Part shown: positions 16,925 through 64,000 of the stretch, piece after piece
Numbering within the stretch: position 1 is the first letter of the stretch
Layout of the letters: each line of letters starts with the position of its first letter
NCBI RefSeq assembly: GCF_902804485.1
Contig: NZ_CADCST010000047.1
Coordinates: 1-64,000 of the forward strand
From: Flavobacterium collinsii
GTDB lineage: Bacteria; Bacteroidota; Bacteroidia; Flavobacteriales; Flavobacteriaceae
Direction: 5' to 3'
Length of the DNA: 64,000 nt
Program-made: the position numbers and the translations under genes
Notes under the pieces: model-generated
Seen by the model: the letters and a program-made list of their open reading frames with translations, nothing else
Told to the model about the DNA's origin: nothing
Database searches by the model: none

Positions 16925-19900
16925 CTACAACACTCCCATAAATTTTAAGTAGGGAGTCATTAATTTTTTATCAAAAACCGGTGGTTTTAAATTCGCGTCC
17001 GATAAAAAATGTCTCGTATTACTTCTGTCATAATAATAGGTATTTTCATAGGCTTCAACCAGTGATTTTCCTTCATGTACGTCTTCGGTAAACAAACTCA
17101 ATAAAGGATAAATTGGCAAACTACTGTCATGTTTCCATTGGTTTAGCCACTTATGATACTCCATTCCTTCTAAATCTGTAGTATAATATTCGTTCATTTT
17201 AGCACAAAAATCGGTGAGAGATACATCATTTTCAGCCAAAGGAGACAGATGGAAATTTAAACCAACTGCTTCTTTCTTTTTACTAATATGTGTGATGGCT
17301 TTACACATATAGTCTACTGTTGTGAGTTCATCTTTTAACCCCATTACCAGCGGAAAAGATTTGAGTTTAACACAGCTTCTGATTAATGCCCCCCACCACT
17401 GATTTAGTACTGTCGCTCCCGAGGTACTGTGACATACAGCGAAACCAAGTCTGAAATTGATAATTGGCAGCCCTTTTGCCCGTGCTTTTTCGGCAATACT
17501 TTCCATCACCCATTTGCTTTTAATATATCCCAAATCGCGGGAGACAGCGGCCATATTCTGGTCGATCGTATCATCTTCATACATCCATGTTTTTTGGGTA
17601 AAAGACCTTCCCCAGCTAAAAACACCCATTGAAGATAAAAGTATCAGATATTTTACCTTTTCTTTTACGGCAAGCTCAATTATAGTATGCAAACCGTCGA
17701 TGTTTGATTTTTTTATTAAAGAATACGGCTGTACATAACTCACAGAACTTCCGGAATGATAAATAAGGTCGATTTGTTGTGCAATAAAAGAATAGTCATT
17801 CACCGTCATTCCAAACTGAGGCAATGACAAATCCCCTGTCATAGCCACTACCCGATCGTTATATCCTGGAAGCCATGTCAATTTAAATTTATCAAATGTC
17901 GTTTTAATTCTTTCCAATCCGCTTTCGGGAGACAAAGCCCGTACCAGACAATATATTTCAGCAGCGGTATTATGCAAAAGTTCTTCTAACAAATGCGATC
18001 CAACAAAGCCGGTAACGCCTGTTAAAAAAATACGTTTCGGATTAGCCAGCACCGCAGCATCCGGTATTTCCTTTATATCAAAATCAATATGCAATTCTGA
18101 GTCGCCAATTAATTCATCAACCATCAGCCCGGCTCTCTTCTGTTGAGAAATTTCGGTTTCCTGCATTCTTTTTTCAACTTCTTGTACAAAGGTCGAAACG
18201 GTCTTAAAAATGTAAAGCTCCGGAAGACTGATGCAATTTTTAACGGGTTCAGGAAGCAGTACATGAAGTTGTGTCAGAAGTAAAGAATGTCCGCCTAACT
18301 CAAAAAAGTCGTCGTCGTCGTCAATCTCATCTATAGCAAGTAAACTTTTCCAGATGTCTTTTACCATTTCGGGAAGATTGCCTGTCTTGCGTTTCGCAAC
18401 TGCTTTGTTGTGAGGATGATTTTCGGGAATTTCCAATAATAATTTATCAATTTTTCCGGCATGTGTCAGCGGCATTTTATCGATCACAATAATTTTATCG
18501 GGCAACATATATACCGGCATAACCTGTTGCAGTTTTGCTCTTATGTGTTGCAGTGATTGTATTTCGTCATCGTGTGCGGTCATCAATTGTATAAAAGCAA
18601 TCAGAGCGGGAAGACCATTCTCTTTGCGATGGACTTTTATCGCTGCCTTAGAGATCTGTGGAAGCTTTGCCATATGATGTTCGATTTCACCCAATTCAAT
18701 TCGGTAGCCTCTAATTTTGACCTGATCGTCTTTTCGTCCATAGAACTCTAAGTTTCCATCAGACCTTTTCAGAACTAAATCTCCCGTTTTGTAGATTATT
18801 TGTCTTTCCTCTAAATCATTTGTAAGCCATTCAGGAGCCTTTACAAAAGCTTTTTTAGTATCCTCCGGACGGTTCAGGTAACCTAAAGCCAATTGCGGTC
18901 CGCCAATATAAAGTTCTCCAACCGAACCTTCTTTCACCGGTTTTAAATCTCCGTCCAGAATAAATAAATGAGCAAGTGGCATCGCAGCTCCAATAATTCT
19001 GGGATTGGTTTCTTCTCTAAATTCATAATTTGTAACAGCAACGGTAGCTTCCGTGGGACCATAACTATTGATAAGCCGAATCTTTTTGTACCAGAATTTA
19101 ATAGTAGCCTCACTACAAGCCTCACCTCCTATAGCAATCGTTTTTAGGTTTCCAATAGGCCTGTTCACTGGCAGTGAAGCCAGTACCATAGGTGGTAGTA
19201 ATGGAATAGTATCTATATTTTGCCTGACTATAAAATCTAAAAGAGGTTCGCCAACAATTTTGTTATTGGGATACAAATACATCGTTGCGCCTTTAATCAA
19301 AGGTGTCCAGATGTCGATAACCGCGGCATCAAAACTTGGAGAAGCAAATTGCAGTGTTGTACTTGCTGTAGACAATCGCAAGACAGCTGATTGATATTCA
19401 ACAAAATTGTAAAAAGACTCATGGCCAATAATAACTCCTTTGGGTAATCCCGTACTTCCCGAAGTATAAATAATATAAGCAGGGCTTTCGGGTGCAATAG
19501 AAATTTCAAAATCGGCTTTGGAGCTCTTTTTGTAATCCTCATTTTGAAACAAAAAATCCAGGGCAATACTTTCGTTGGTATTGTTGTAAACTTTATTCAA
19601 ATACTGTTCGACCGTTAACATCACATCTATTTCCGAGTCTTCGATCATCATTTGTATGCGGGACTCCGGCAATTCTCCGTCAATAGGAAGATAAGCCGCA
19701 CCTGTTTTTAAAATTGCCAAAAAAGCAATAATCCGATCAACCGATTGCGGAATACAAACCCCAACCACTCCATTTTGTGTAATCCCTCTTTCTCTCAAAT
19801 AATGAGCCAATTGATTCGTTTGTTCATTAAGTTCTTTGTAGGTGATTTTTTCAATGTCGTCAATAATTGCTATTTTTTCGGGATACTTTTTAAAAATTTC

Positions 19901-19999
19901 TTCCATCTTCCTGACAATATTAAGGGAAGATTCTTCTAAATTATTGTTCAAAAAAAGACCTTGATTCTCATTCACAGTTGCATTCATTTCTTCGTTCAT
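16925..19999 (-). CDS. NRPS-like adenylation-carrier-thioester reductase enzyme
   Basis: The protein has 1024 residues. The adenylation domain (about 20-530) shows YTSGSTGLPKG near 180, NSYGPTEATV, YKTGDLV, a GRKDDQVKIRGYRIELGEIE motif and a PLTHAGKIDK end. A phosphopantetheine carrier (about 540-610) has FELGGHSLLLTQL near 567. A Rossmann reductase (about 655-1024) has LTGVTGFVGSHLL and YIKSKWVMES. This A-T-R layout, without a condensation domain, resembles alpha-aminoadipate/carboxylate reductases and saframycin/myxochelin-type chain releasers. It should activate an acid, load it on its own carrier and release an aldehyde or alcohol using NAD(P)H. The Asp of FDAAV at the usual binding-pocket position suggests an alpha-amino acid, but the substrate is not identifiable. 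No other NRPS genes or phosphopantetheinyl transferase are nearby. A second ATG four codons in (MNATVN) is also possible. Confidence 0.88.
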   Translation of the reverse strand: MNEEMNATVNENQGLFLNNNLEESSLNIVRKMEEIFKKYPEKIAIIDDIEKITYKELNEQTNQLAHYLRERGITQNGVVGVCIPQSVDRIIAFLAILKTGAAYLPIDGELPESRIQMMIEDSEIDVMLTVEQYLNKVYNNTNESIALDFLFQNEDYKKSSKADFEISIAPESPAYIIYTSGSTGLPKGVIIGHESFYNFVEYQSAVLRLSTASTTLQFASPSFDAAVIDIWTPLIKGATMYLYPNNKIVGEPLLDFIVRQNIDTIPLLPPMVLASLPVNRPIGNLKTIAIGGEACSEATIKFWYKKIRLINSYGPTEATVAVTNYEFREETNPRIIGAAMPLAHLFILDGDLKPVKEGSVGELYIGGPQLALGYLNRPEDTKKAFVKAPEWLTNDLEERQIIYKTGDLVLKRSDGNLEFYGRKDDQVKIRGYRIELGEIEHHMAKLPQISKAAIKVHRKENGLPALIAFIQLMTAHDDEIQSLQHIRAKLQQVMPVYMLPDKIIVIDKMPLTHAGKIDKLLLEIPENHPHNKAVAKRKTGNLPEMVKDIWKSLLAIDEIDDDDDFFELGGHSLLLTQLHVLLPEPVKNCISLPELYIFKTVSTFVQEVEKRMQETEISQQKRAGLMVDELIGDSELHIDFDIKEIPDAAVLANPKRIFLTGVTGFVGSHLLEELLHNTAAEIYCLVRALSPESGLERIKTTFDKFKLTWLPGYNDRVVAMTGDLSLPQFGMTVNDYSFIAQQIDLIYHSGSSVSYVQPYSLIKKSNIDGLHTIIELAVKEKVKYLILLSSMGVFSWGRSFTQKTWMYEDDTIDQNMAAVSRDLGYIKSKWVMESIAEKARAKGLPIINFRLGFAVCHSTSGATVLNQWWGALIRSCVKLKSFPLVMGLKDELTTVDYMCKAITHISKKKEAVGLNFHLSPLAENDVSLTDFCAKMNEYYTTDLEGMEYHKWLNQWKHDSSLPIYPLLSLFTEDVHEGKSLVEAYENTYYYDRSNTRHFLSDANLKPPVFDKKLMTPYLKFMGVL

Positions 20000-22712: not shown

Positions 22713-22879
22713 TCAGACTATACCATTTACAATAGTTACTTCAAATTCATTTGTCAATTCAAGGGACGGGAAATCACAAACAATAGTAATGTGGTTACTC
22801 GTTCCCTGAGCTGATACAAAAAATCAGACTCATTCTTTATTTCAGATTTATCTTTCTAATTTTTTCTTTATTTTTTTAA

Positions 22880-22919
22880 TGAAACAATGTTGCATTTACA
22901 AATAAGAATTCTATATTTG
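22880..22919 (+). promoter_or_regulatory. Promoter with Fur-superfamily-like box, first metal operon
   Basis: TGAAACA-A-TGTTGCA (22880-22894) is a 7-1-7 inverted repeat with 6 of 7 arm positions paired. TATATTTG (22912-22919) is a full -7 box, and the TTG at 22890-22892 is a suitable -33 element, so the box overlaps the -33 region. A matching box lies at 58599-58613 before the paralogous operon. Zinc (Zur) repression is my inference from context. Confidence 0.6.
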
Positions 22920-22954: not shown

Positions 22955-23302
22955 ATGAAAAAGGAATTTAAATTTATAAATCTTTTGATGCCGTTGGTGG
23001 TAGTATTTGCAATACTATTTCCGGCGATACATTCATATGAACACATTCAAAGTCACAATTCAGCTTCTAAAACAGCCGTACATTATCAGACAGATAAAAG
23101 CGAATTTAAAGTACACGATCACTCCAATGAAGAGTGTGCCATTTGTCATTTTAAATTTAGTCCTGTTGGTACTTTCAACTTTGTAACTTTTCAGTTTTAT
23201 AAAAATAGTACGCTAATTCCTTATGTACATTTTTATTCTCAATCCAATACTCCTTTTTTCAAAGGTTCTTTATTTGCCCTTAGAGCACCACCTATTTTCT
23301 AA
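22955..23302 (+). CDS. Small exported His/CxxCH protein heading a metal-type operon
   Basis: The protein has 115 residues and I assign it to no named family. The N-terminus is a signal or membrane helix (LINLL-type, residues about 8-27). HSYEH follows, then a His/acid-rich stretch with HDHSNEECAICHFKFS, and a conserved tail FFKGSLFALRAPP. It is a clear paralogue of the protein at 58665, sharing HSYEH, CxICHF and the tail. CxxCH could bind haem c, but the clustered His and Cys fit a periplasmic metal binder at least as well. It precedes a TonB receptor operon and has a Fur-family-like box in its promoter, so a role in metal sensing or delivery is likely but unproven. Confidence 0.75.
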   Translation: MKKEFKFINLLMPLVVVFAILFPAIHSYEHIQSHNSASKTAVHYQTDKSEFKVHDHSNEECAICHFKFSPVGTFNFVTFQFYKNSTLIPYVHFYSQSNTPFFKGSLFALRAPPIF

Positions 23303-23735: not shown

Positions 23736-24239
23736 ATGAATACCGTTAAACTCAAATTAAACCGAATGAAAACGCCTAAAATTCTTCTGGCCTTTTTGGC
23801 GATTGGCTTTATTTTCACAGCCTGTAACAGTGACAAAGACGAAATTGACACGGAATATCCCGTAATTGATATTTCGGCAGCAAATGCATTTCCGATACAA
23901 TGTAGTACAGTTTCCCGTGGTCAAAAAATTACTTTTAGAGCAAAATTCACAGACAACGCTCAGTTAGGTTCTTACAGTCTGGACATTCACCACAATTTTG
24001 ACCATCACACGCACAGCACTGAAGTAATGAACTGTACCGCCGATCCTATCAAAAAACCGGTAAATCCAATGCTTTACATCAATTCGGTTACGATTCCTTC
24101 CGGACAAAAAAGTTATGAGGCTCTTCAGGAAATCAGCATTCCTGCAGACATTGACCCGGGAGATTATCATTTCATGATTCGTTTAACGGATAAGGAAGGC
24201 TGGCAGACGATTAAAGGCTTAAGCATTAAAATTTTATAA
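23736..24239 (+). CDS. His-rich lipoprotein, DUF4625-like
   Basis: The protein has 167 residues. The signal peptide is lipoprotein type, with the lipobox IFTAC; the Cys is residue 30 from this start or 20 from the ATG at 23766 (MKTPKILLAF), which may be the true start. The mature part is one beta-sandwich-like domain with the motif DIHHNFDHHTHSTE (four of its residues His, plus acids), a likely metal site. Its end (SIPADIDPGDYHFMIRLTDKEG) is mirrored in the lipoprotein at 26690, so I place both in the DUF4625 group. It lies 10 bp upstream of a TonB receptor gene. I infer a surface or periplasmic metal-binding accessory. Confidence 0.75.
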   Translation: MNTVKLKLNRMKTPKILLAFLAIGFIFTACNSDKDEIDTEYPVIDISAANAFPIQCSTVSRGQKITFRAKFTDNAQLGSYSLDIHHNFDHHTHSTEVMNCTADPIKKPVNPMLYINSVTIPSGQKSYEALQEISIPADIDPGDYHFMIRLTDKEGWQTIKGLSIKIL

Positions 24240-24249
24240 GTTGATTTTA

Positions 24250-26682
24250 ATGAACAATTATAATTCCAGTCCCTTGCGAACGTATTGTCTGCTGCTCTTT
24301 TGTTTTGCTTTGGTTGTGGTTACAAAAGCTGCAGCGCAATCTGTTCGTGTTTCCGGCAGTGTATTTTCTAAAGAGCGAAAGCCTTTAGAAAGTGCTGTCG
24401 TTACTCTTTATCCGGCTCATATAAGCACTGTTACCAACAAAAAAGGGCAATTCTTTTTGAATCAGGTTCCTAAAAATACAAAACGGTTAACGATTACTTA
24501 TTCCGGGTATTCTTTTTATGAAATGCCTCTTTCTATAGACCAAAACACTATTGCGCTTCCTGACATTTTTTTAAAACCGGAAGTAAATGAATTACTGGAA
24601 GTTGTGATTAGTGAAGGTTACGAAACAAAACGCAAAAAACAGGAGTCACTGAATCTTGAAATTGTAAACAGCAGTTTTATCCAACGGAATCTTGGAGGAA
24701 GTCTGATGCAGTCTTTACAAAGACTTCCGGGAATTAAAACCATTTCTATAGGTTCAGGAGGTTCAAAACCACTAATTCGCGGACTCAGTTTCAATCAGGT
24801 TATTGTGGTCGAAAACGGCATCAAACATGAAGGCCAGCAATGGGGCGCCGATCATGGTTTAGAAATCGATCAGTATGCGGTAAACCGTCTGGCAATTATC
24901 AAAGGTCCTTCATCGTTTATGTACGGTTCTGATGCAATTGGAGGTGCCATAAACATACAGCCAGTTCCCTTTCCTGCCCAGCATGTTCTAGGCGGAAGTG
25001 CTAATTTTACAGGCAAAAGCAATAATGCGCAATTTGGAGGATCGATGAACCTCTACGGACGGAATGAAAACTGGTTCTTTGACACCCGAATTACCGCTAT
25101 GGAATACGGAGATTATCGCGTTCCGACCGATACGGTGCATGTTTATAATTATGCCGTTCCATTATACAAAAATCACTTACGCAATACGGCAGGGCGCGAA
25201 CTCGATGTGCACGCCAGTACCGGATATGTCTCTGATAAGTTCAAATCGGTTTTATATTTCAGTAACATTTATACCAAAAGTGGCTTTTTTGCCAACGCAC
25301 ACGGACTCGAACCCCGAAATGTAGATACCCAACTTCATGATCGCTCGAGCAGAGATATCCTCATGCCTTTTCAGGAAGTTACTCATACGAAAATCAGTAA
25401 TACAACTTCCTTTACCCTGGGTTCACATCGTCTGGAAACGCAATTGGGATTTCAAAAAAATTTCCGTCGTGAACGGAGTCATTATGTCAATCATGGATAT
25501 ATGCCACCACTATATCCTGTTGATATGTATGCTCCGAAAGATTTAGAAAGACAATACGATAAAGAAGTGTTTTCTGCTGCTCTAAAAGATGAATTTACCA
25601 TTCAAAATCATCAATTCACCGCAGGAATTAATGCCGAACAACAACAAAATAGTATTAACGGCTGGAGTTTTTTAATTCCCGCTTTCAAACAATTCAATGC
25701 AGGAGCGTTTGTGTATGATAAAATTCAACTTAGCGAATTATGGCTGCTTCATGCTGCCATACGACTGGACTACGGCAGAATCAAAATGAAACAATACACC
25801 GACTGGTTTCTAAGTGAAGTCACTGAAAATGGACAAACTACTTCCGAATATTTAAAGCGCTCGCAAGAGCTGACCCGAACTTTTCAGAGTTTCAACTGGT
25901 CTGCGGGTGTTAATTATACTCCGGGGCAATGGTCTTTAAAAGCCAATCTGGGAACGAGTTTCAGAATGCCAATTGCAAAAGAACTGGCTTCAAATGGTGT
26001 TAATTATCATTATTTCAGATTTGAAAAAGGCAATGCCAATTTATCTCCCGAACGTTCTTATCAGTTAGATCTTGGTATGGAATGGCAGGAAAACAAATGG
26101 TCCGTGCAGTTGAGTCCATTCTTAAATTATTTCTCTAATTACATTTATCTCAATCCAACTTCGCAACATGACATTTATTATGGAGCAGGCAATCAGGTTT
26201 TTGAATATGAGCAAAGTAAAGTCCTGCGTTATGGTGGTGAATTACAAGTGCGGTACCAGTTTCTAAAAAATTTAAGTGGTGAAATCCTGGCGGAATACCT
26301 TTATAGCGAGCAAATGTCGGGGGATAAAAAAGGATATACATTGCCTTTCTCTCCTCCCCCTTCTGTTTTGTTTGGTGTTACGTACAATCCGGAAATAAAA
26401 AACTTAAAAGGAACCTATTTCTCCCTTGATTATCGTTTTACCGCCGAACAGAACCAAATTGTTCCGCCGGAAAGGAAAACAGCAAGCAGCAACGTCTTTA
26501 ATCTTGCCATGGGAACCCAACTAAAAGCCGGACAGCAAGATTTTATTCTAAGTCTTCAGGTTCAAAACCTATTCAATACAAAATATCTTAATCATACCAG
26601 CTTTTACAGGTTAATAGAACTTCCTGAGGCTGGCAGAAATATTATTCTATCGCTGAAAATTCCATTTCTAATACACAAATAA
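24250..26682 (+). CDS. TonB-dependent outer-membrane receptor, probable metal uptake
   Basis: The protein has about 810 residues. The signal peptide ends near TKAAAQ. A carboxypeptidase-like regulatory domain (about 30-115, SGSVFSKERKPLESAVVTL) is followed by a plug (LQRLPGIKTISIGSGGSKPLIRG, then IKGPSSFMYGSDAIGGAINI) and a 22-strand-type barrel to the C-terminus. The ATG at 24250 is preferred to a TTG nine bases earlier. Extracellular loops include several His (HGLEPR, RERSHYVNHGYMP), which fits metal rather than sugar substrates. There is no SusD gene. It is flanked by His-containing lipoproteins 10 and 7 bp away, so the genes are co-transcribed. Its layout recalls zinc receptors of the ZnuD type; this is inference. 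Confidence 0.9.
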   Translation: MNNYNSSPLRTYCLLLFCFALVVVTKAAAQSVRVSGSVFSKERKPLESAVVTLYPAHISTVTNKKGQFFLNQVPKNTKRLTITYSGYSFYEMPLSIDQNTIALPDIFLKPEVNELLEVVISEGYETKRKKQESLNLEIVNSSFIQRNLGGSLMQSLQRLPGIKTISIGSGGSKPLIRGLSFNQVIVVENGIKHEGQQWGADHGLEIDQYAVNRLAIIKGPSSFMYGSDAIGGAINIQPVPFPAQHVLGGSANFTGKSNNAQFGGSMNLYGRNENWFFDTRITAMEYGDYRVPTDTVHVYNYAVPLYKNHLRNTAGRELDVHASTGYVSDKFKSVLYFSNIYTKSGFFANAHGLEPRNVDTQLHDRSSRDILMPFQEVTHTKISNTTSFTLGSHRLETQLGFQKNFRRERSHYVNHGYMPPLYPVDMYAPKDLERQYDKEVFSAALKDEFTIQNHQFTAGINAEQQQNSINGWSFLIPAFKQFNAGAFVYDKIQLSELWLLHAAIRLDYGRIKMKQYTDWFLSEVTENGQTTSEYLKRSQELTRTFQSFNWSAGVNYTPGQWSLKANLGTSFRMPIAKELASNGVNYHYFRFEKGNANLSPERSYQLDLGMEWQENKWSVQLSPFLNYFSNYIYLNPTSQHDIYYGAGNQVFEYEQSKVLRYGGELQVRYQFLKNLSGEILAEYLYSEQMSGDKKGYTLPFSPPPSVLFGVTYNPEIKNLKGTYFSLDYRFTAEQNQIVPPERKTASSNVFNLAMGTQLKAGQQDFILSLQVQNLFNTKYLNHTSFYRLIELPEAGRNIILSLKIPFLIHK

Positions 26683-26689
26683 ATACAAC

Positions 26690-27622
26690 ATGAATTCAAT
26701 TAATCAATCCAATTTCCTTATGAAAAAACTAAAATTAATACTACTCTTTGTAGCCGTAAGTACAGCTTTTACAGCCTGTAATAACGACGACGACAAAGAA
26801 GCTACAAAACCCAAAGCCGAAAATATTGAAATTGGAACTGCCAATAATAAAAAAGCCCTGATTGGCCGCGATTTTCACTTTAATGCCGATGTACTTGCCG
26901 GAGATAAAATTGCCGATGTACAGTTAAAAATACTTCCAATAAAAGGGGAAGTCTATACCAAAGACTGGAAGTTCGAATTGTCCTGGGCAGAATATAAAGG
27001 CACAAAAAATACCAATGTACACAAGCACTTCAATATTCCCGCCGATGCTCCGGAAGGCAAGTTTGATTTCCTTTTTATTGTTCTGGATGAAAACGGATCG
27101 AAACTAGAAATTAAAGAGGTAGTAACCATTACCGATCCTGCAAATATGCCTGTCGATCCTTTAATTGGCCGCGATAATCTATCCCGAAACGATAATCTGA
27201 TTTACTATATGAATACCTGGGTTGAACCGGAACTTATTTTCAAAAAAAATGATCTCCTGACTGCGCATGCGCAGGTAAGTCAAATTATGGGGGATGGAAT
27301 TTTATATTCTGTTTTGATTAAAAAAAATGCCAATTACTATCCTGAAAGTATCGACAAGCTCGATTTCAAAAAAGTAATCGTCATTTCAAAAGTCGAACAT
27401 AAAGGTCTGGGGGCTGCTTCAAAAATTACTACACTTCAAAAAATAAATGGTGTTTTTGGTGGTCAAAGCATCACTATTGGTGCAGATACAGATTTCGTAG
27501 GAACTCCAATAACCGCAGACAAAGCGTGGCAATCCGGAACATACAATTGGGTTGTCCTTTATAAAAACACAACTTACAATATGAGTGTCTACAAGTCGAT
27601 GCCTATTACAATTAATTTTTAA
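26690..27622 (+). CDS. Lipoprotein with DUF4625-like domain
   Basis: The protein has 310 residues. A lipoprotein signal ends at AFTAC, followed by the acidic NNDDDK tether typical of surface-exposed Bacteroidota lipoproteins. An ATG at 26720 (MKKLKLILLF) is an alternative start. The first domain (about 45-150) includes VHKHFNIPADAPEGKFDF, parallel to the end of the lipoprotein at 23736. The second part (about 165-310) contains WVEPELIFKKNDLLTAHAQV and a strand-rich tail of unknown fold. The 7-bp spacing to the receptor gene and 25 bp to the next gene mark one operon. It is probably an accessory substrate-binding lipoprotein. Confidence 0.75.
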   Translation: MNSINQSNFLMKKLKLILLFVAVSTAFTACNNDDDKEATKPKAENIEIGTANNKKALIGRDFHFNADVLAGDKIADVQLKILPIKGEVYTKDWKFELSWAEYKGTKNTNVHKHFNIPADAPEGKFDFLFIVLDENGSKLEIKEVVTITDPANMPVDPLIGRDNLSRNDNLIYYMNTWVEPELIFKKNDLLTAHAQVSQIMGDGILYSVLIKKNANYYPESIDKLDFKKVIVISKVEHKGLGAASKITTLQKINGVFGGQSITIGADTDFVGTPITADKAWQSGTYNWVVLYKNTTYNMSVYKSMPITINF

Positions 27623-27647
27623 ATATCAACTTTAATATACCATTACA

Positions 27648-28862
27648 ATGAAAAACAACTATTACAAACTAATTTTCCTATTCGCCTTATCTACCGCTGT
27701 ACTTTCCTGCAGCAACGACGACGACAATACTCCTGAAACACCTAAAGAGGCCTTAACAGAATATAAATTCTTAAGAATTTTACTTTCTGATGAGAAAACA
27801 ACCGAGATTACGCTGGTTAATCCGGTCGATGCTACTGCAAACTCTTTTAATGCCAAATTTGCAAAATCTACGCTTTATACCACAGAATCTAAACGATACG
27901 CAGGAATTATTCACAGAGCCAGCAATACAGTTGAAACTTTCGATAGCGGTTTTGAAGGTCATGGCGATCATGTTGATGTAGACGGAATTCCGAAATTTGG
28001 TACTTTAATTGGTCAGGCTCCTATGCCTACACATTTTAAAAGCAAAAGCGGAGAACTGATGACTTTTAACGATGGAGACGGAACACTGGCTGTAGCCAAA
28101 GAATCTGAAGTCAATACTGCGGGATCTAAATTTAAAATTATAAATGCAGGATTATTAGCCCATCACGGTGCCATGGCTACTTTTTCTAACGGTAGTTATG
28201 CCATTACCGAAAAAGACAATTCGGTAGCAGGAACTCTTCCTGAGAAAGTAAAAATCATCGATAATTCGGGTAAAACTCTTTTTCCTGCTACTGTTATAAC
28301 CAAAGGAATTCACGGAAATGCTTCAGACGGAACCTATGCCGTTTTTGGATCGGCAAGCGGTGTTCTTGTAGTTGAAAGTACCGGAAAACAAAAACTTATC
28401 GCACTTCCTGCCGATTTTGGAACTGCCTGGTTTGGAACTATTTTAGAAACCAAAGCCAAAGGGAAATTTGTAGGCTATACTGCTGCTAAAGGAGCTTTCC
28501 TTATTGATGTGGCGAGTGAAACGATTAAACCTATTTTACAAAATACTACTATCATGCAATGTAAAGTGAGTTTCAATGCCACTAAACTTGGGATTCTGTT
28601 GCATAACGGTGAATTCAAACTATACAACCTTACCAGCCTGCAACTTGAAAAAGAAGGTAAAGTTATTGCCGAAACTGCTACAGACGCAGCTTTAAAACCA
28701 CAAGTTCAATTAACAGAAAACTTTGCTTACCTTACTTCTCCAACTACAGGAGAATTACTGCAACTGAATTTGTCTACTATGACAATTGCAAAGAAAATAA
28801 AGGTTTCGAATACACCTTATATGATCACAATTCTTGGTTTTGAAAACAGTAAAGGTCACTAA
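27648..28862 (+). CDS. Propeller-like lipoprotein, possibly AztD-type zinc chaperone
   Basis: The protein has 404 residues. The lipobox is AVLSC (Cys about 21), followed by SNDDDN. The mature part has regularly spaced strand-turn repeats (DGDGTLAVAKES, FGSASGVLVVESTGK, LETKAKGKFVGYT, LLHNGEFKLYNLTS), as in a seven- or eight-bladed beta propeller. Potential metal ligands are GFEGHGDHVDVDG, LLAHHGAMATF and KGIHGNASDG. From memory these resemble the His motifs of the periplasmic zinc metallochaperone AztD, so I suggest that family without being certain. It is the last gene of the operon and is followed by a strong terminator. It would hand metal taken up by the receptor to an inner-membrane importer encoded elsewhere. 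Confidence 0.6.
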   Translation: MKNNYYKLIFLFALSTAVLSCSNDDDNTPETPKEALTEYKFLRILLSDEKTTEITLVNPVDATANSFNAKFAKSTLYTTESKRYAGIIHRASNTVETFDSGFEGHGDHVDVDGIPKFGTLIGQAPMPTHFKSKSGELMTFNDGDGTLAVAKESEVNTAGSKFKIINAGLLAHHGAMATFSNGSYAITEKDNSVAGTLPEKVKIIDNSGKTLFPATVITKGIHGNASDGTYAVFGSASGVLVVESTGKQKLIALPADFGTAWFGTILETKAKGKFVGYTAAKGAFLIDVASETIKPILQNTTIMQCKVSFNATKLGILLHNGEFKLYNLTSLQLEKEGKVIAETATDAALKPQVQLTENFAYLTSPTTGELLQLNLSTMTIAKKIKVSNTPYMITILGFENSKGH

Positions 28863-58592: not shown

Positions 58593-58613
58593 TATATTTG
58601 CAACAACGTTGCG
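58593..58613 (+). promoter_or_regulatory. Promoter with Fur-superfamily-like box, second metal operon
   Basis: TATATTTG (58593-58600) is a full -7 box, with TTG at 58569-58571 as a suitable -33 element. TGCAACA-A-CGTTGCG (58599-58613) is a 7-1-7 inverted repeat (5 of 7 arm positions) abutting the start of transcription. It aligns at 14 of 19 positions with the box at 22880. Confidence 0.6.
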
Positions 58614-58664
58614 TTAGTTTAAAAGCTAGAAAGTCCGCCAGAAACAGGACTTTCTCCATCAAGA

Positions 58665-59015
58665 ATGAAAAAGAAAATTGTGTTAATTAATCTTTTTATG
58701 TCTGTTACTGTATTGTTTGCAATGCTGTTTCAGACGCTGCATTCTTACGAACATGTTTACAAGCAGCTTACAAGCAAACATTGCGACCATACTTATATTG
58801 ACGGACAAAAGCAAATTACGCACAGCCATACTGCTGATACCAATTGCCAGATTTGTCATTTTACATTTAGTACTTTTATTCCGGAAACCTTTCAGTCTTA
58901 CTCCTTTCTTAAAGTAAGTATTGAAACTTGCTGCGCGTTCTTTTATGTAAAAACCGCTGCTGTCTTTTTCAAAGGCAGTCTTTTTGCTCTTAGGGCACCA
59001 CCTTCAATTTATTAG
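58665..59015 (+). CDS. Small exported His/CxxCH protein heading the second metal operon
   Basis: The protein has 116 residues and is a paralogue of the one at 22955. The N-terminal membrane or signal helix (LINLFMSVTVLFAMLF) is followed by HSYEHVYKQL, KHCDHTY, THSHTADTNCQICHFTFS and the conserved tail FFKGSLFALRAPP. The extra KHCDH pair strengthens the case for metal binding over a cytochrome. The variable parts are the linker lengths and the region around residue 85-100. I infer a periplasmic or membrane-anchored metal-binding factor; no known name. Confidence 0.75.
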   Translation: MKKKIVLINLFMSVTVLFAMLFQTLHSYEHVYKQLTSKHCDHTYIDGQKQITHSHTADTNCQICHFTFSTFIPETFQSYSFLKVSIETCCAFFYVKTAAVFFKGSLFALRAPPSIY

Positions 59016-59321
59016 TTTACTGCGTTTTTATCCAAAAAACTAAGAACATCACTTGCTTGTCTTTTTAAAAGTCAGGCAAAACCCATTTGTAGTTTTATCT
59101 GCTGCCTTTTTCAAAAAAAATGCTGACCAATAAAACCTGAAAGGCCATTCTCGCTTATCCAATACAACTGTTTTTTTTTTTGGGGGGTTCAATCGTTGTA
59201 AACACCATTTCCCTTACTTCCTTCATTGCAAAGATGCCTTAGCTGTAAACCAGTAGGTTGGACTTTGGCTATGATTGGCAGTAAAGACTCCTGTTAAAAA
59301 TCATCCAAATACATAATAACT
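59016..59321 (+). other. Leader/spacer in the second metal operon with T11G6 tract
   Basis: These 306 bp carry no ORF. A homopolymer run of eleven T followed by six G occupies 59171-59187. A spacer of similar character (433 bp, hairpin-rich) follows the paralogous small gene at 23303. Confidence 0.55.
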
Positions 59322-60017
59322 ATGCTTATAGCTGAAAATCTGACAAAGAAATATGGCGATCATATTGCTTTAAACAAACTGAATTTAACAATTAACGAAG
59401 GCGAAATCTTTGCCTTACTGGGACAGAACGGTGCCGGAAAAACAACCACCATCAATTTGTTTCTAGGTTTTATCGCTCCAACAGACGGAGAACTGAAAAT
59501 CAACGATATCTCGGTTATCGAAAATGCGCAGGAAACAAAAAAGTATGTCGCTTATATTCCGGAAACAGTGATGTTGTACCCAAATCTTACCGGTTTAGAA
59601 AATTTAAAGTTCTTTTCGTCTCTGGCGGGATTCAAATATTCAGAAGGAGAACTCACCTATTTCCTTTCAAAGGCAGGACTGCAACTTAAAGCACACCATC
59701 AAAACTTAGGTGGTTATTCGAAAGGAATGCGTCAAAAAGTTGGAATCGCAATCGCAATCGCCAAGAAAGCCAAGGTTCTCTTATTGGACGAACCTACCAG
59801 TGGTTTAGATCCTAAAGCTTCCAACGAGTTTTCTCAAATATTAAAAGAGCTTTCTGCAGATGGAACGGCCATACTGATGGCTACGCACGACATTTTCAGA
59901 GCCAGAGAAGTTGCCTCTCATATTGGCATTATGAGACAGGGAAATCTCGTTACCGTTATAGAAGCCGATAAAATCTCGGCAAATGAACTGGAAGATTTGT
60001 ATTTACAAACTGTATAA
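59322..60017 (+). CDS. ABC transporter ATP-binding protein
   Basis: The protein has 231 residues and a complete nucleotide-binding domain: Walker A GQNGAGKTTTI (about 34-44), Q-loop area YIPETVMLYPNLTG, signature YSKGMRQKVGIA, Walker B VLLLDEPTSGLD and H-loop MATHD. It is closest to the NosF/CcmA type that powers ABC-2 permeases. It is followed after 36 bp by a TonB receptor, then by two ABC-2 permease genes, its natural partners. Confidence 0.93.
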   Translation: MLIAENLTKKYGDHIALNKLNLTINEGEIFALLGQNGAGKTTTINLFLGFIAPTDGELKINDISVIENAQETKKYVAYIPETVMLYPNLTGLENLKFFSSLAGFKYSEGELTYFLSKAGLQLKAHHQNLGGYSKGMRQKVGIAIAIAKKAKVLLLDEPTSGLDPKASNEFSQILKELSADGTAILMATHDIFRAREVASHIGIMRQGNLVTVIEADKISANELEDLYLQTV

Positions 60018-60053
60018 AAGGAAATTACATTTTTCCAAACCCATCCAAAAAAA

Positions 60054-62339
60054 ATGAAACATTTTATTCTCTCACTGTTTTTAATAATTATTAGTCAGTT
60101 TGCACAATCGCAAACCGTTAATAAAAAAGCATCCGATACCATATCTAACAAAACAGAACGCACCGAATTGCAAACGGTCGAAATTATAGGCCGTTCGACC
60201 AAAAAATATAATAGTGATTATTCTTTTGCAGCAACAAAAACAGCCGCCCTCAACAAAGATATTCCACAATCTATAGCAACGATCACCAAAGAACTAATTG
60301 CAGATAAAGGCGCCATTTACCTGGCCGATGCTGTCAAGATGGCCAGTGGTGTTATTCCCGCAAGTTATTACAATCAGTATACGATTCGCGGAATCAGTCA
60401 AAACGAAGAAGGCCAGATCATAAACGGCATGCGAACACATCAACATTACTTCTTGCAACCTTTAACGACCAATATTGAACGAGTTGAAGTGATTAAAGGA
60501 CCTTCGAGTGCTACATTCTCTTCTGTCGATCCGGGTGGAAGCATTAATATGGTTACTAAAAAACCACTGGCTGTTGATCGAAAAGAGATAAGTCTGAGTG
60601 CAGGAAGCTTTAGCACTTTGCGCGGAACTTTAGATTTCACTGGCCCATTGAACGAATCAAAAACCCTTTTATACCGTGTAAATGGTGCCTATCAGGAAGC
60701 CAAATCGTTTCGGGATCTGGTTCGCAATAAATCGTTTTTGATTTCGCCATCCTTCAGCTACATTCCGAATGAAAAAACAGCCATCAATACCGAATTAATT
60801 TTGAGCAACATGACCGGAGTTCTGGATCGCGGACAGCCAATTTTTGGTGCCGTTGCGGGAGTTACAAGTCTAAATAAAACTCCAATTAGCTTAAATTTAG
60901 GTGCCCCAAGTGATTTCTATAAATCAAAAGAAATGATTTTGACGACCAATTTCGTTCATAAGTTCAACTCTAAAATAGGTTTTAATGCATCGTACATGAA
61001 ACAAACCTGGACAGAAGATCTTCAGGAACACAGAACTACAAATGCTTTTGCAGTCGACATGAACAATAAACCTGTCAGTAGTCTGGCCATGATGCAATTT
61101 GTACAGCGTCAGCAATATTGGGACGTTGATAACCTGAGTGCTTATTTCAACTTTGATGTAAATACAGGAAAAGTAAAACATAAATTATTGGCAGGTTACG
61201 ATTTAAACAGCTGGAACAAAACCAAAGGCGGTGGACAAAATGCTGCCAGAGGTTATTTATTGAAAGACGGAACGGTAGCCAGTTCATTTGTTGCTGCCAA
61301 TGCTGCCAATTATCAAACCATAACAGTCGATGGGGTGGTTTTACCAAAACCAAATGTAAATTATTTTAATCTGAACAATCCCAATTATACCTTAACAAGT
61401 CCTGACGATTATACACTCAATGTTCGTACTGCCTTGCCATCTGCATTAACCAGTACCAACGCAATTTATATCCAGGATCAGGTACAATGGGAAAGATTTA
61501 CCGTTTTACTGGGCTTGCGTCAAGAATGGTTTAAAGACATCACAAACTACAAATCCAACAATGAACTGACTGTTAAAAAGTCGGCTTTACTGCCGCGTAT
61601 TGGAGTGACTTATGCCGTAAACAATCAAATAAACGTTTACACAACTTATCTTGAAGGTTATCAGCCACAATCGAATACGGTATCTTTGATGCCTCAAACA
61701 GGAAGTTTACCAGCCGGAAGTTTGTTTGATCCACTGAAAAGCAACTTGAAAGAAGTTGGACTGAAAGCTACTTTTTTCAACAATTCCGTAAGTTTCAACG
61801 CCGCTCTTTATGAAATCAACCAGCGTAATATCCTAATGAATGCCAACGACCCGGCAAATCCTGATTTGCTGGTAACAAGAGGTGCTGAAAGAAGTCGTGG
61901 TTTCGAATGTGACGTAGCAGGTTTTATTACGGCCGACTGGCAAATAAACGCTTCGTACAGTTATATTGATGCCGAAATTACCAATGATCGCGATCCTTCG
62001 TTAATTGGAGCCCGAAAACAAAATACACCAAAAAACAGCGCCAATTTGTGGACACGCTACAATTTCAACTCTGATTCGGCTCTAAAAGATTTGGGTATTG
62101 GTTTCGGAATGCAATATCAAAGCAGCAAAGTGCCTTGGTTTACAAGATCTTTTACACTGCCTGACTTTACTGCTTTTGATGCAGCTTTGTACTACAAACC
62201 AAACAAAAGTAATATGCAGATCGCCCTGAATGCGGGTAATTTATTCAATAAAACGTATTGGTTGGGTGCCCAGAATTATCTAAGACTATTTCCCGGAGCA
62301 CCGCGAAATTTCACTCTTACTGTAACTTACAAATTTTAA
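60054..62339 (+). CDS. TonB-dependent siderophore-type receptor within an ABC operon
   Basis: The protein has 761 residues. The signal peptide ends near FAQSQT, with no regulatory N-domain. The plug includes NKDIPQSIATITKELIADKG, YTIRGISQNEEGQIINGMR and VEVIKGPSSATFSSVDPGGS; the barrel ends NFTLTVTYKF. The family is the siderophore receptor group. Its location between an ABC ATPase gene and its permease gene is unusual: the stop is 8 bp from the permease ATG. This implies that import through this receptor and the ABC transporter act on one substrate. Confidence 0.9.
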   Translation: MKHFILSLFLIIISQFAQSQTVNKKASDTISNKTERTELQTVEIIGRSTKKYNSDYSFAATKTAALNKDIPQSIATITKELIADKGAIYLADAVKMASGVIPASYYNQYTIRGISQNEEGQIINGMRTHQHYFLQPLTTNIERVEVIKGPSSATFSSVDPGGSINMVTKKPLAVDRKEISLSAGSFSTLRGTLDFTGPLNESKTLLYRVNGAYQEAKSFRDLVRNKSFLISPSFSYIPNEKTAINTELILSNMTGVLDRGQPIFGAVAGVTSLNKTPISLNLGAPSDFYKSKEMILTTNFVHKFNSKIGFNASYMKQTWTEDLQEHRTTNAFAVDMNNKPVSSLAMMQFVQRQQYWDVDNLSAYFNFDVNTGKVKHKLLAGYDLNSWNKTKGGGQNAARGYLLKDGTVASSFVAANAANYQTITVDGVVLPKPNVNYFNLNNPNYTLTSPDDYTLNVRTALPSALTSTNAIYIQDQVQWERFTVLLGLRQEWFKDITNYKSNNELTVKKSALLPRIGVTYAVNNQINVYTTYLEGYQPQSNTVSLMPQTGSLPAGSLFDPLKSNLKEVGLKATFFNNSVSFNAALYEINQRNILMNANDPANPDLLVTRGAERSRGFECDVAGFITADWQINASYSYIDAEITNDRDPSLIGARKQNTPKNSANLWTRYNFNSDSALKDLGIGFGMQYQSSKVPWFTRSFTLPDFTAFDAALYYKPNKSNMQIALNAGNLFNKTYWLGAQNYLRLFPGAPRNFTLTVTYKF

Positions 62340-62347
62340 ACTGTATC

Positions 62348-63796
62348 ATGTCATTACACATCGAAATTTTAATTGCCAGACATCTTAAAAATGCTGTTTT
62401 TAAAAATACGGCCGTCTATATCATCACACTCTTTATTGGTATCATACTCCTTTATGCTGCTTTTTCAGGTTGGGAAAATTACAACAACCAAAATCAGACC
62501 AGCGAAAAATACCAGCATGAATCACGCGAAGACTGGCTTAACAATCCAGATAAAAACCCGCACCGAATGGCACATTACGGAAATTTTGCCTTTCGAAAAA
62601 GTACTCCTTTGAGCGTTTTTGAATTTGGAATGGAACCCTTCTTTGGGAATGCTATATTTCTTGAAGCACACAAACAAAATAGTGCCAATTTTTCTGAAGC
62701 GGGATTCTCTAACAGTATGCTCCGTTTTGGAGAAATCAGCATTGCAATGGTTTTACAAATTTTACTGCCTTTACTGATTTTTTTCTTAGGATTTAATGCG
62801 GTCGCAGCCGAAAGAGAAAATGGGACTCTAAAACTACTTTTAAGCCAGGGAATTAGCTGGAAACAGCTCTTAACCGGAAAGATAGTAGGAATTGTAAATG
62901 TAATCCTGCTGCTTTTTGTTCCTACCATACTAGTCCTTGTACTTCTATGGTTGCTGCTTCAGGATTTTACAATTTCAACAGATGAAACCATCAAAATGCT
63001 ACTGTTTATTCTGTTTCATTTTATTTACCTGATCTTCTTTTGCGTGATTGCTGTGCTGATTTCTGCTTCAAGCAAAACCTCCAAAAAAGCCTTGATTTCC
63101 TTAATCGGAATCTGGCTGGTTCTCACCATTATTTTACCCCGAACTACTCAGGCAATCGGAGCATATCTTTACGAAGCACCCTCAAAAATACAATTCAACA
63201 GTGCTATCGAAAAAGACATCCTGAAACAAGGTGACAGTCATAATCCTAACGATTTACATTACAAGGCCATCAAAGATTCCTTGCTGAGCGTTTACAAAGT
63301 CGATTCGGTACAAAAACTGCCTTTTAATTATTCGGGGTTTATCATGACCGAAGGAGAGAAAATCAGTTCGAAGATTTACAACCAACACTTAGAAGAGCTG
63401 CTAAAAGTTTACGACCAGCAAAATAGCTTCTCCAAAGCCGTTTCATTCCTGAATCCGTACATCGCGATCCGAAACCTGTCAATGGGTCTATCCAATACCG
63501 ATTATAGTTCGTATGTCGATTTTCAGAAACAGGCGGAGCGTTATCGCTATACTATGGCACAAAAAATGAATGCTTTGCAGGTTAAATACATCAGTAATAA
63601 AAAGCCGGGACCAAACGACAAGCCTTTATCCATCAGCAAAGAACACTGGGCTGATCTGGAAGAATTTCATTATGAGCCAAAAGAAGTCCCGGCTATTTTA
63701 AAGTCCGAAATACTCTCTGTAGTTTCTATTTTTCTGTGGATTATCCTGCTTTTTGTTCTTATACGAATTGCAGCTAAAAACCTTAAAGCCCTCTAA
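62348..63796 (+). CDS. ABC-2 type permease with large extracytoplasmic loop (DUF3526-like)
   Basis: The protein has 482 residues from the ATG at 62348 (MSLHIEILIARHL); an in-frame start inside the receptor gene is rejected. There are six predicted transmembrane helices. The first helix is followed by a 120-residue external segment, then LRFGEISIAMVLQILLPLLI, FLGFNAVAAERENGTLKLLL and LLTGKIVGIVNVILLLFVPT. A second long external segment (about 300-440) precedes the last helix. It forms the membrane part of the transporter with the ATPase at 59322 and probably the next permease. Confidence 0.85.
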   Translation: MSLHIEILIARHLKNAVFKNTAVYIITLFIGIILLYAAFSGWENYNNQNQTSEKYQHESREDWLNNPDKNPHRMAHYGNFAFRKSTPLSVFEFGMEPFFGNAIFLEAHKQNSANFSEAGFSNSMLRFGEISIAMVLQILLPLLIFFLGFNAVAAERENGTLKLLLSQGISWKQLLTGKIVGIVNVILLLFVPTILVLVLLWLLLQDFTISTDETIKMLLFILFHFIYLIFFCVIAVLISASSKTSKKALISLIGIWLVLTIILPRTTQAIGAYLYEAPSKIQFNSAIEKDILKQGDSHNPNDLHYKAIKDSLLSVYKVDSVQKLPFNYSGFIMTEGEKISSKIYNQHLEELLKVYDQQNSFSKAVSFLNPYIAIRNLSMGLSNTDYSSYVDFQKQAERYRYTMAQKMNALQVKYISNKKPGPNDKPLSISKEHWADLEEFHYEPKEVPAILKSEILSVVSIFLWIILLFVLIRIAAKNLKAL

Positions 63797-63797
63797 T

Positions 63798-64000
63798 ATG
63801 CTAGCATTACTTTTTAAAAATTTCATACGCTCAAAAGGTACCAAAATTGGATTGGTTTTCCTGTTGCTCATCGGATTCATCAGTCTTTTAATTGGAAAGC
63901 AATTTCAACAAAAGCAGCAGAATAATATTGTAGAAGCTGCATTATACCAAAAAGAACATATTGCGCGAAATGCCGCTTTTCACAAAGACGAAATGGGACT
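63798..64000 (+). CDS. Second ABC-2 permease, N-terminal part only
   Basis: The start ATG at 63798 is 1 bp after the preceding stop. The visible 67 residues begin MLALLFKNFIRSKGTKIGL, with a first transmembrane helix (VFLLLIGFISLLIG) and a Gln-rich, helical external stretch. By position and N-terminus it is a second DUF3526-like permease pairing with the first. The gene continues beyond the window. Confidence 0.75.
   Translation, partial: MLALLFKNFIRSKGTKIGLVFLLLIGFISLLIGKQFQQKQQNNIVEAALYQKEHIARNAAFHKDEMG

Follow-up and report, generated by a model that had tools for sequence, protein, structure and literature searches.

Introduction

Zinc uptake is usually described as being under the control of transcription factors such as Zur. 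In Caulobacter crescentus, znuK and znuGHI (CC1517-CC1520) are repressed by Zur and zinc, and a znuK mutant forms no colonies at 850 µM ethylenediaminetetraacetic acid unless zinc is added (PMC4176598; for background on Zur, PMC6103462; these papers and those below are cited from the accessible parts of their text). Here, we analysed a 64,000-nucleotide (nt) stretch of Flavobacterium collinsii DNA (contig NZ_CADCST010000047.1, positions 1 to 64,000; hereafter the window), at the right end of which one plus-strand operon, operon 2, encodes a small CxxCH protein, an ATP-binding cassette (ABC) ATPase, a TonB receptor and two ABC-2 permeases of the DUF3526 family. From sequence comparison and from analogy with characterised systems, we consider it reasonably probable that this is a zinc-acquisition operon of the ZnuK-ZnuGHI kind under two-level control, by a Zur-type box at the promoter and by a CruR-like leader peptide.

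CruR of Bordetella pertussis carries a CXXC motif at residues 90-93 and a RAPP motif at residues 139-142 with 45 residues between them, a spacing kept to within 1-2 residues in more than 2,000 DUF2946 proteins. Downstream expression is lost when RAPP is mutated, the response to copper suffers when CXXC is, and copper itself sets off Rho-dependent termination within the intergenic gap, which holds a C>G Rho region (PMC9426467). According to the same authors, no riboswitch has been described for copper or zinc. CutF and CruR work in opposite senses; Bacteroidota account for 40% of the CutF-like proteins on the normalised list D, and the word zinc is absent from the text of that paper (PMC9973294). 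RAPP and RGPP are arrest sequences in several contexts and are depleted from proteomes (PMC12992588), and structures of RAPP arrest exist (PMC10951233). In the parts of the arrest-peptide survey available, leaders of copper genes are described as lacking in Bacteroidota, and leaders of TonB genes as occurring in Gram-negatives generally (PMC12992588).

Results

The TonB and ABC-2 gene set is conserved well outside Flavobacterium

Behind the small gene and a long gap, both treated below, operon 2 continues on the plus strand with an ABC transporter ATPase in a ZnuG-like position (59322..60017; PF00005, 109.1 bits) and a 761-residue TonB-dependent receptor of the siderophore/metallophore type (60054..62339), which passes TIGR01783 with 282.9 bits against a curated cut-off of 223.5. 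ABC-2 permease 1 follows (62348..63796; DUF3526, 106.3 bits; NosY-like predicted fold), then ABC-2 permease 2 (63798..64000), also DUF3526, which is cut by the window end and finishes at contig position 65154.

We compared DUF3526 loci from 40 places and 17 weaker ones, together with the 80 best-scoring named loci among 546 relatives from a capped scan, chosen by the peptide pattern NPHxAAHYG; second permeases were recognised through their similarity to permease 1, and a TonB-type class was defined by similarity to the window receptor. DUF3526 occurs in 58 of 395 Bacteroidota genomes, mostly as an adjacent pair. ATPase, receptor and both permeases are found together in Flavobacterium (the transporter is also present in a Flavobacterium johnsoniae strain), Chryseobacterium, Pedobacter, Chitinophaga, Aquimarina, Dyadobacter and others, and rearranged orders occur, such as leader-TonB-permease-permease-ATPase. 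COG0523 or AztD-like genes adjoin DUF3526 operons in other families.

Plasmids of Betaproteobacteria carry the same gene set (7 of 12 matches to plasmid records were examined, two of them unannotated and read from open reading frames, ORFs). In Eleftheria terrae the order is TonB-ATPase-DUF3526-DUF3526 behind a DUF2946 protein that exceeds the family cut-off, and in Comamonas endophytica the same set stands behind a hypothetical small protein. The receptor gene is divergent in Novosphingobium; Blastomonas has the ATPase, two DUF3526 and TonB genes, with no small gene annotated ahead of them; Spirosoma has a gene for a hypothetical protein of 145 residues well upstream; and Methylocystis lacks both receptor and leader, having just the two permeases with their ATPase. 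Overall, the gene set is conserved well outside Flavobacterium and its order is not accidental. All the parts that the original prediction had listed (a small CxxCH paralogue, an ATPase, a siderophore-type TonB receptor and two ABC-2 permeases) are present, and its view of a conserved metal operon that combines, under one shared operator, a TonB importer with an ABC-2 transporter of the export type was borne out, the order recurring across Bacteroidota genera and betaproteobacterial plasmids. The pairing itself, which it had presented as undescribed, is not so, since Caulobacter znuK/znuGHI has the same combination under zinc and Zur regulation (PMC4176598).

Two further arrangements were seen around DUF3526. 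A second subfamily (18 loci) mostly has genes for proteins of ~245 and ~500 residues, then the ATPase and two permeases, and neither a leader nor the histidine motif described below was found in it. In six loci, a DUF5916 protein of ~750 residues, mostly with CBM9, lies beside the DUF3526 pair. Such neighbours were considered as TonB receptors and ruled out by their Pfam matches (DUF5916 with or without CBM9 in the 6 loci tested); because the TonB-type class is set by likeness to the window receptor, these loci fall in the class of other DUF3526 loci. In four of the six, a leader with RAPP or RPPP is present as well.

The first cistron has the layout of a CruR-like leader

The first cistron of operon 2, an upstream ORF at 58665..59015 on the plus strand, encodes 116 residues with a hydrophobic N-terminus visible in the alignment, an extra His-rich stretch, a CxxCH motif at residues 61-65 (CQICH, with CQIC at 61-64) and a C-terminal LRAPPSIY, in which RAPP occupies residues 110-113 and only SIY follows before the stop. 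The original prediction had seen this small gene and missed the RAPP layout, from which we read the product as probably a CruR-like leader peptide and not a piece of transport machinery. The RAPP codons (58992..59003; AGG GCA CCA CCT) form a putative ribosome arrest site. The spacing from the first cysteine of CxxC to the arginine is 49 in both leaders of the window (C61 to R110 here, C60 to R109 in operon 1, described below), that is, 45 intervening residues, which matches B. pertussis CruR (C90 to R139; PMC9426467).

The small protein has no Pfam match. Profile searches with its three paralogues in the genome found it in 135 of 150 sampled congeneric genomes and, at the level of the family, in 20 of 199 genomes, taken at about one per genus. 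R[AG]PP is present in 23 family-level loci and 40 genus-level matches, the latter a subset of those found, and in locus L170, with the qualification that the search model includes R[AG]PP columns; two of the family-level loci aligned without them. Among 116 distinct small ORFs collected by motif, a set that includes two evidently unrelated ORFs and eight without CxxC, the spacing is 48 or 49 in 92.

We then asked how often such a leader accompanies the transporter. A CxxC followed at the correct spacing by [RKHQ][AGPSD]PP, on the sense strand and within 5.5 kb upstream, was found in 65 of 90 TonB-type DUF3526 loci, a count in which named and unnamed loci overlap in part, without de-duplication; 23 of the remaining loci were negative and two begin at a contig edge. 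The same test gave none among 1,448 control ORFs (0/414 on the minus strand and 0/1,034 downstream), none in the 18 loci of the second subfamily and 12 positives among the 30 other DUF3526 loci. A looser search in 20 of the 25 leftover loci recovered ten more, of which eight are RPPP leaders spaced at 55 or 56 and two combine CxC with RAPP; in one locus (L247), the leader lies farther upstream, ahead of a second transporter copy. In the window operon, as in most leader-bearing DUF3526 loci, the leader is the first cistron.

The C-terminal motif varies with lineage. KGPP leaders occur in Pedobacter, Chitinophaga, some Chryseobacterium and relatives (18 loci, and three more noted beside them), and RPPP leaders with a spacing of 53-56 in Zobellia, Aquimarina and relatives (ten loci); the words KGPP, RPPP and zinc are all absent from the text of the survey in PMC12992588. 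On the betaproteobacterial side, the spacing is 51 in Eleftheria terrae, 48 in Comamonas endophytica (CLWC, RGPP) and 49 in the small protein of Variovorax paradoxus (CAWC, RDPP). Three betaproteobacterial equivalents score 28.9, 23.4 and 13.8 bits on DUF2946, of which the first passes the cut-off and the other two lie below it.

In 54 GSLF-type leaders, all six codons are used for the arginine of the motif and all four for each proline. This set required GSLF.LR[AG]PP, so that the invariance of the residues is partly by construction and the diversity of the codons is not; because the codons vary at the motif, the comparison indicates that selection acts on the leader peptide. Across 16 divergent Bacteroidota leaders, the invariant positions are one histidine, CxxC and the R, P and P of RxPP, the last again partly by construction since these rows were chosen among ORFs with R[AG]PP. 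The combination of CxxCH with HxH in the leader is compatible with zinc, without being proof of it.

Between the leader and the ATPase gene lies an intergenic region of 306 nt (59016..59321, plus strand), C>G and of unconserved sequence, which is a candidate region for Rho-dependent termination. In 30 Flavobacterium loci this gap measures 182-448 nt with no conserved sequence. Over 17 leader-bearing loci, the mean (C-G)/(C+G) is +0.22 in the late leader (positive in 16/17) and +0.21 in the gap (17/17), as against ~0 in the ATPase and TonB genes of the same loci. No terminator-like site was found in the 306-nt gap, Rfam gave zero matches in the window and no tRNA was found there. An intrinsic attenuator was also considered, in the form of a hairpin at 58959-58979 within the leader coding sequence, and rejected as a switch because such sites are near the shuffling expectation (2 against 1.2) and synonymous codons differ there in homologues.

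A box is shared by both window operons and a Zur-like gene

Upstream of the leader, the box TTGCAACAACGTTGCGT lies at 58598..58614 on the plus strand, and a promoter element that we take to be the Bacteroidota-type -7 element, TATATTTG, at 58593..58600; this element starts 5 nt 5' of the box in most of the operon 2 relatives listed. A second copy of the box, ATGAAACAATGTTGCAT (22879..22895, plus strand), precedes operon 1. That operon begins with a paralogous leader (22955..23302, plus strand; CxxCH and RAPP), whose small protein is 44% identical to that of operon 2, and continues with a DUF4625 protein, a ZnuD-like TonB receptor, another DUF4625 protein and an AztD-like protein (23736..28862, plus strand), the ZnuD and AztD scores being under the curated cut-offs. 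Elsewhere in the genome (C64:70340-70690; L061:4341-4694), a third paralogue of the leader, carrying CYVCH and RGPP, stands 5' of another TonB receptor.

The shared box had been proposed in the original prediction. Within the window alone the pair is not significant (2 matches against 1.68 expected), and a first, loose genome-wide scan was uninformative (73 matches against 63 for a control pattern). With the consensus ATGCAACANTGTTGCAT at no more than one mismatch, just two sites occur in the 5.7-Mb genome, 5' of operon 1 and 5' of a Fur-family gene; the operon 2 box has three mismatches to it, a level at which there are 30 matches per strand against 15 for the control. As this consensus was derived from these same sites, the actual test is in the relatives. 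There, TTGCAACNNNGTTGC at 11/12 or better is present within 200 nt upstream of 49 of the 54 distinct GSLF-type leaders, against 0/21 of the RGPP paralogue type and 1/21 of other leaders, and shuffled leader upstream regions give zero matches, so that the proposed sharing becomes clear only at the level of the genome and its relatives. Operon 1 of the window is one of the five GSLF-type leaders under the threshold (10/12).

The Fur-family gene encodes a Zur-like regulator (C54:65835-66233). Near the start of Zur-like genes, the box at 11/12 or better was found in 14 of 18 hits, which come from 17 of the 46 genomes searched; the shuffle control covered the leader upstream regions alone. On the opposite side of the promoter of the Zur-like gene, the source genome has a MerC-COG0523 operon. 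In three genomes, the Zur-like gene is adjacent to and divergent from a leader with ZnuD-like and AztD-like genes behind it, and COG0523 is also present in one. Three loci form a compact zinc island with the Zur-like gene divergent from the leader, then a ZnuD-like gene, a protein of ~199 residues (zero Pfam matches in the two tested), an AztD-like gene and a second ZnuD-like gene.

Because the box is common to the leaders, to the Zur-like gene and to surroundings with COG0523, ZnuD-like and AztD-like genes, we read it as the putative operator of a Zur-type repressor. Zinc is likely to be the metal of the operon, given the box shared with the Zur-like gene, the COG0523, AztD-like and ZnuD-like neighbours and the regulation of Caulobacter znuK/znuGHI (PMC4176598); the survey's finding that Bacteroidota lack leaders of copper genes, whereas those of TonB genes are general in Gram-negatives, points the same way (PMC12992588). 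Among 14 control genomes, DUF3526 was found in Caulobacter vibrioides alone.

Transport step and alternative readings

The predicted structure of permease 1 (mean predicted local distance difference test score 86) has NosY as its best relative, both by sequence profile (7.2e-11) and by Foldseek (E 1.6e-4). NosY is also the best fold match in VIA-align (Z 23.9, root-mean-square deviation 3.1, 247 aligned residues), the next folds being ABCA, ABCG and PmtD at Z 13.6 to 18.3. Compared with NosY of the NosFY transporter, permease 1 is ~200 residues longer, with two large insertions, and its partners differ. From the topology, these insertions (residues 65-131 and ~270-400) should be periplasmic. 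The His motifs NPHxMAHYG and EAHxQN lie in the region taken as periplasmic, and an alignment of 21 permeases shows no variation at His72, His76 or His108. Counting only loci found by PF12040, since the named loci had been selected by NPHxAAHYG, PHxxxH[YF] is present in 34 of 39 first permeases. The motif occurs in 0/36 permeases of the second subfamily and in 0/123 second permeases.

One possible reading, though a doubtful one, is that the ABC-2 pair is an inner-membrane zinc importer that replaces ZnuABC. In its favour, ZnuA (PF01297) was found neither in the source genome (99.9% complete) nor in the Caulobacter vibrioides control genome, and it is rarer in genomes with DUF3526 (18/58) than in others (155/337; Fisher one-sided p 0.023, a test that ignores phylogeny). 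However, congeners without DUF3526 likewise lack ZnuA, and replacement as judged from co-occurrence was set aside, the test being weak and confounded by phylogeny; moreover, the operon has no binding protein. ZnuB-type permeases have a fold other than ABC-2, which also argues against this reading.

Export of a metallophore by the ABC-2 pair with reimport of its loaded form by the TonB receptor, the cycle suggested in the original prediction, appears rather unlikely. The receptor is of the siderophore type, its nearest solved relatives being FhuA and, farther down, the metal-pseudopaline receptor CntO; the ABC-2 fold is that of exporters; and an aminotransferase gene adjoins the operon in Blastomonas and Comamonas, which could fit chelator export. 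Against this, no obvious biosynthetic gene is found within operon 2 or in the annotated Eleftheria version, the complex of the fold neighbour NosY is not regarded as a plain exporter, and the His motif suggests metal handling on what should be the periplasmic side. Because the operon is not accompanied by an obvious gene for making a chelator, we lean towards periplasmic handling, or else import of zinc, and away from export of a chelator.

Copper, or nickel/cobalt, may instead be the metal sensed or handled, as by CruR, CutF and HupE-linked leaders, with the box belonging to another Fur-family regulator; we judge this improbable. The closest solved permease is NosY, part of a copper-enzyme assembly system. 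The Fur-family gene that shares the box, however, has a COG0523 neighbour, and in three genomes its surroundings include ZnuD-like and AztD-like genes; neighbours of the COG0523 or AztD kind recur at DUF3526 operons in other families. In the papers cited, CruR and most CutF-like proteins with a Cys motif head copper operons (PMC9426467, PMC9973294), which favours copper, whereas the TonB and ABC-2 pair is zinc-regulated in Caulobacter (PMC4176598).

A periplasmic or membrane zinc/copper chaperone that feeds the transporter, with RAPP as a structural C-terminus, would fit the hydrophobic N-terminus, the His/CxxCH ligands, the co-conservation of the small protein with the transporter and the short gap to the next gene in some genera, but is the least probable reading, as the small gene is the first cistron in most leader-bearing DUF3526 loci, only one histidine, CxxC and (in part by construction) RxPP are invariant in the divergent leaders, the CxxC-RxPP spacing is kept across otherwise dissimilar sequences, and RAPP and RGPP are known arrest sequences (PMC12992588).

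Neighbouring genes

Downstream of operon 2, at L027:9598-11029 (contig 65597-67028), lie genes that by eye encode an ArsR-like regulator, a 163-residue protein and a low-molecular-weight phosphatase/arsenate reductase-like protein. On the minus strand, the window also encodes two giant proteins (3-9272 and 11083-16152), the first of which has dozens of near-identical repeats of ~80-90 residues each, and a 1,024-residue protein resembling, by eye, an adenylation/carrier/reductase-type enzyme (16925-19999).

Discussion

The proposal of a zinc-acquisition operon under two-level control draws on gene content, conservation, a box shared with the Zur-like gene, and the layout of the leader. In the corresponding mechanism, the TonB receptor would carry zinc, probably complexed, over the outer membrane, and the two-permease ABC-2 transporter, with its NosFY-like fold and presumed periplasmic His motifs, would act at the inner membrane, either on the metal itself or on whatever carries it. 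A Zur-type repressor would bind the box at the promoter. At low zinc, the ribosome would stall at RAPP, the mRNA would stay covered and transcription would continue into the transporter genes; once zinc bound the CxxCH/His site of the nascent chain, just beyond the exit tunnel, stalling would be relieved, the ribosome would depart, and Rho would terminate transcription in the C-rich gap.

Several observations weigh against this proposal or parts of it. On the side of the regulator, the FUR domain match of the Zur-like protein is weak (26.6 bits against a cut-off of 23.1), and the likeness to CC1518-CC1520 is at the level of the family, DUF3526 being found in the C. vibrioides genome, and not gene by gene. 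The box is absent upstream of the RGPP paralogue-type leaders (0/21), for which reason this type may be controlled by the leader alone. Turning to the leader itself, none was recognised ahead of the transporter in 13 of the 90 TonB-type loci, 2 further loci begin at a contig edge, an AztD-like gene precedes the leader in L247, and in seven family-level loci a leader-like ORF stands directly behind another small gene instead of being the first cistron. In these seven loci the preceding gene encodes ~100-160 residues starting like MKKLKERW, and some of the leader-like ORFs have lost the CxxC pair and retain RAPP or RGPP. The gap is just 69-114 nt in five measured loci of other genera, which makes a CruR-like Rho step doubtful outside Flavobacterium. 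The operon 2 leader scores 13.8 bits on DUF2946 (PF11162), where the cut-off is 23.7, and a profile comparison with betaproteobacterial leaders is unconvincing (probability 6.5%); homology of the Bacteroidota leaders to DUF2946, and with it common descent with CruR, is therefore unsupported, and a CruR-like function is likely by analogy. With regard to the metal, copper is the signal for CruR and CutF, the relatives that have been characterised (PMC9426467, PMC9973294), and in the parts of PMC9973294 available CutF-like proteins are assigned to copper or nickel/cobalt and not to zinc. Finally, the KGPP leaders do not fit a uniform mechanism: KGPP is mentioned in neither arrest-peptide text (PMC12992588, PMC10951233), and for ApdA and ApdP a critical role is ascribed to the arginine.

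More tentatively, and with somewhat less than even confidence, Bacteroidota may have a large family of zinc-sensing nascent-chain switches that act in series with Zur on operons for zinc uptake, with diversified arrest motifs (RAPP, RGPP, KGPP, RPPP, RSPP). If so, these would be the first zinc sensors of the nascent-chain type as far as our literature searches reach: covering DUF3526-TonB, Zur in Bacteroidota, and arrest peptides or CruR/CutF in connection with zinc, with subscription journals mostly outside, they returned only PMC4176598 as combining ABC-2, TonB-dependent, Zur and zinc starvation. KGPP would then be a new arrest motif without the arginine thought essential. A nascent leader reading zinc under a Zur box would also provide a second check per transporter operon. 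It would explain what a Pfam-less small protein found in most sampled congeners is for. The spread in Bacteroidota, the conserved histidines and the presence in a Flavobacterium johnsoniae strain make the direction of ZnuK-ZnuGHI-type transport testable.

Among known systems, CutF-like proteins (list D) are exported, as the leaders may be, and resemble them as small Cys/His proteins with a C-terminal proline motif, 5' of metal genes (PMC9973294), and ApdA/ApdP and the survey of PMC12992588 share C-terminal RAPP/RGPP in small ORFs 5' of TonB-class genes in Gram-negative phyla. CruR (BP2923, DUF2946) has in common with operon 2 a first cistron with a TonB receptor gene downstream, CxxC, 45 residues and a C-terminal RAPP, a long intergenic gap and a C>G region; it differs in responding to copper where the metal here is probably zinc, in being without ABC-2 genes and, in the parts of the paper available, without mention of a Zur box, whereas the leader here has an extra His-rich stretch and CxxCH (PMC9426467). 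Caulobacter znuK/znuGHI likewise joins a TonB receptor to an ABC-2 transporter made up of an ATPase and two permeases, and it has a Zur box, to which the putative Zur-type box here would correspond, and a zinc starvation response; its Zur box sequence differs from the box described here, znuK and znuG look divergent from one box because the boxes listed for them in Table 1 are reverse complements of each other, and a leader cistron is not mentioned in the accessible text (PMC4176598). The pairing of transporter parts is therefore already known, and the new part is the joining of a leader to a Zur-type box on this operon.

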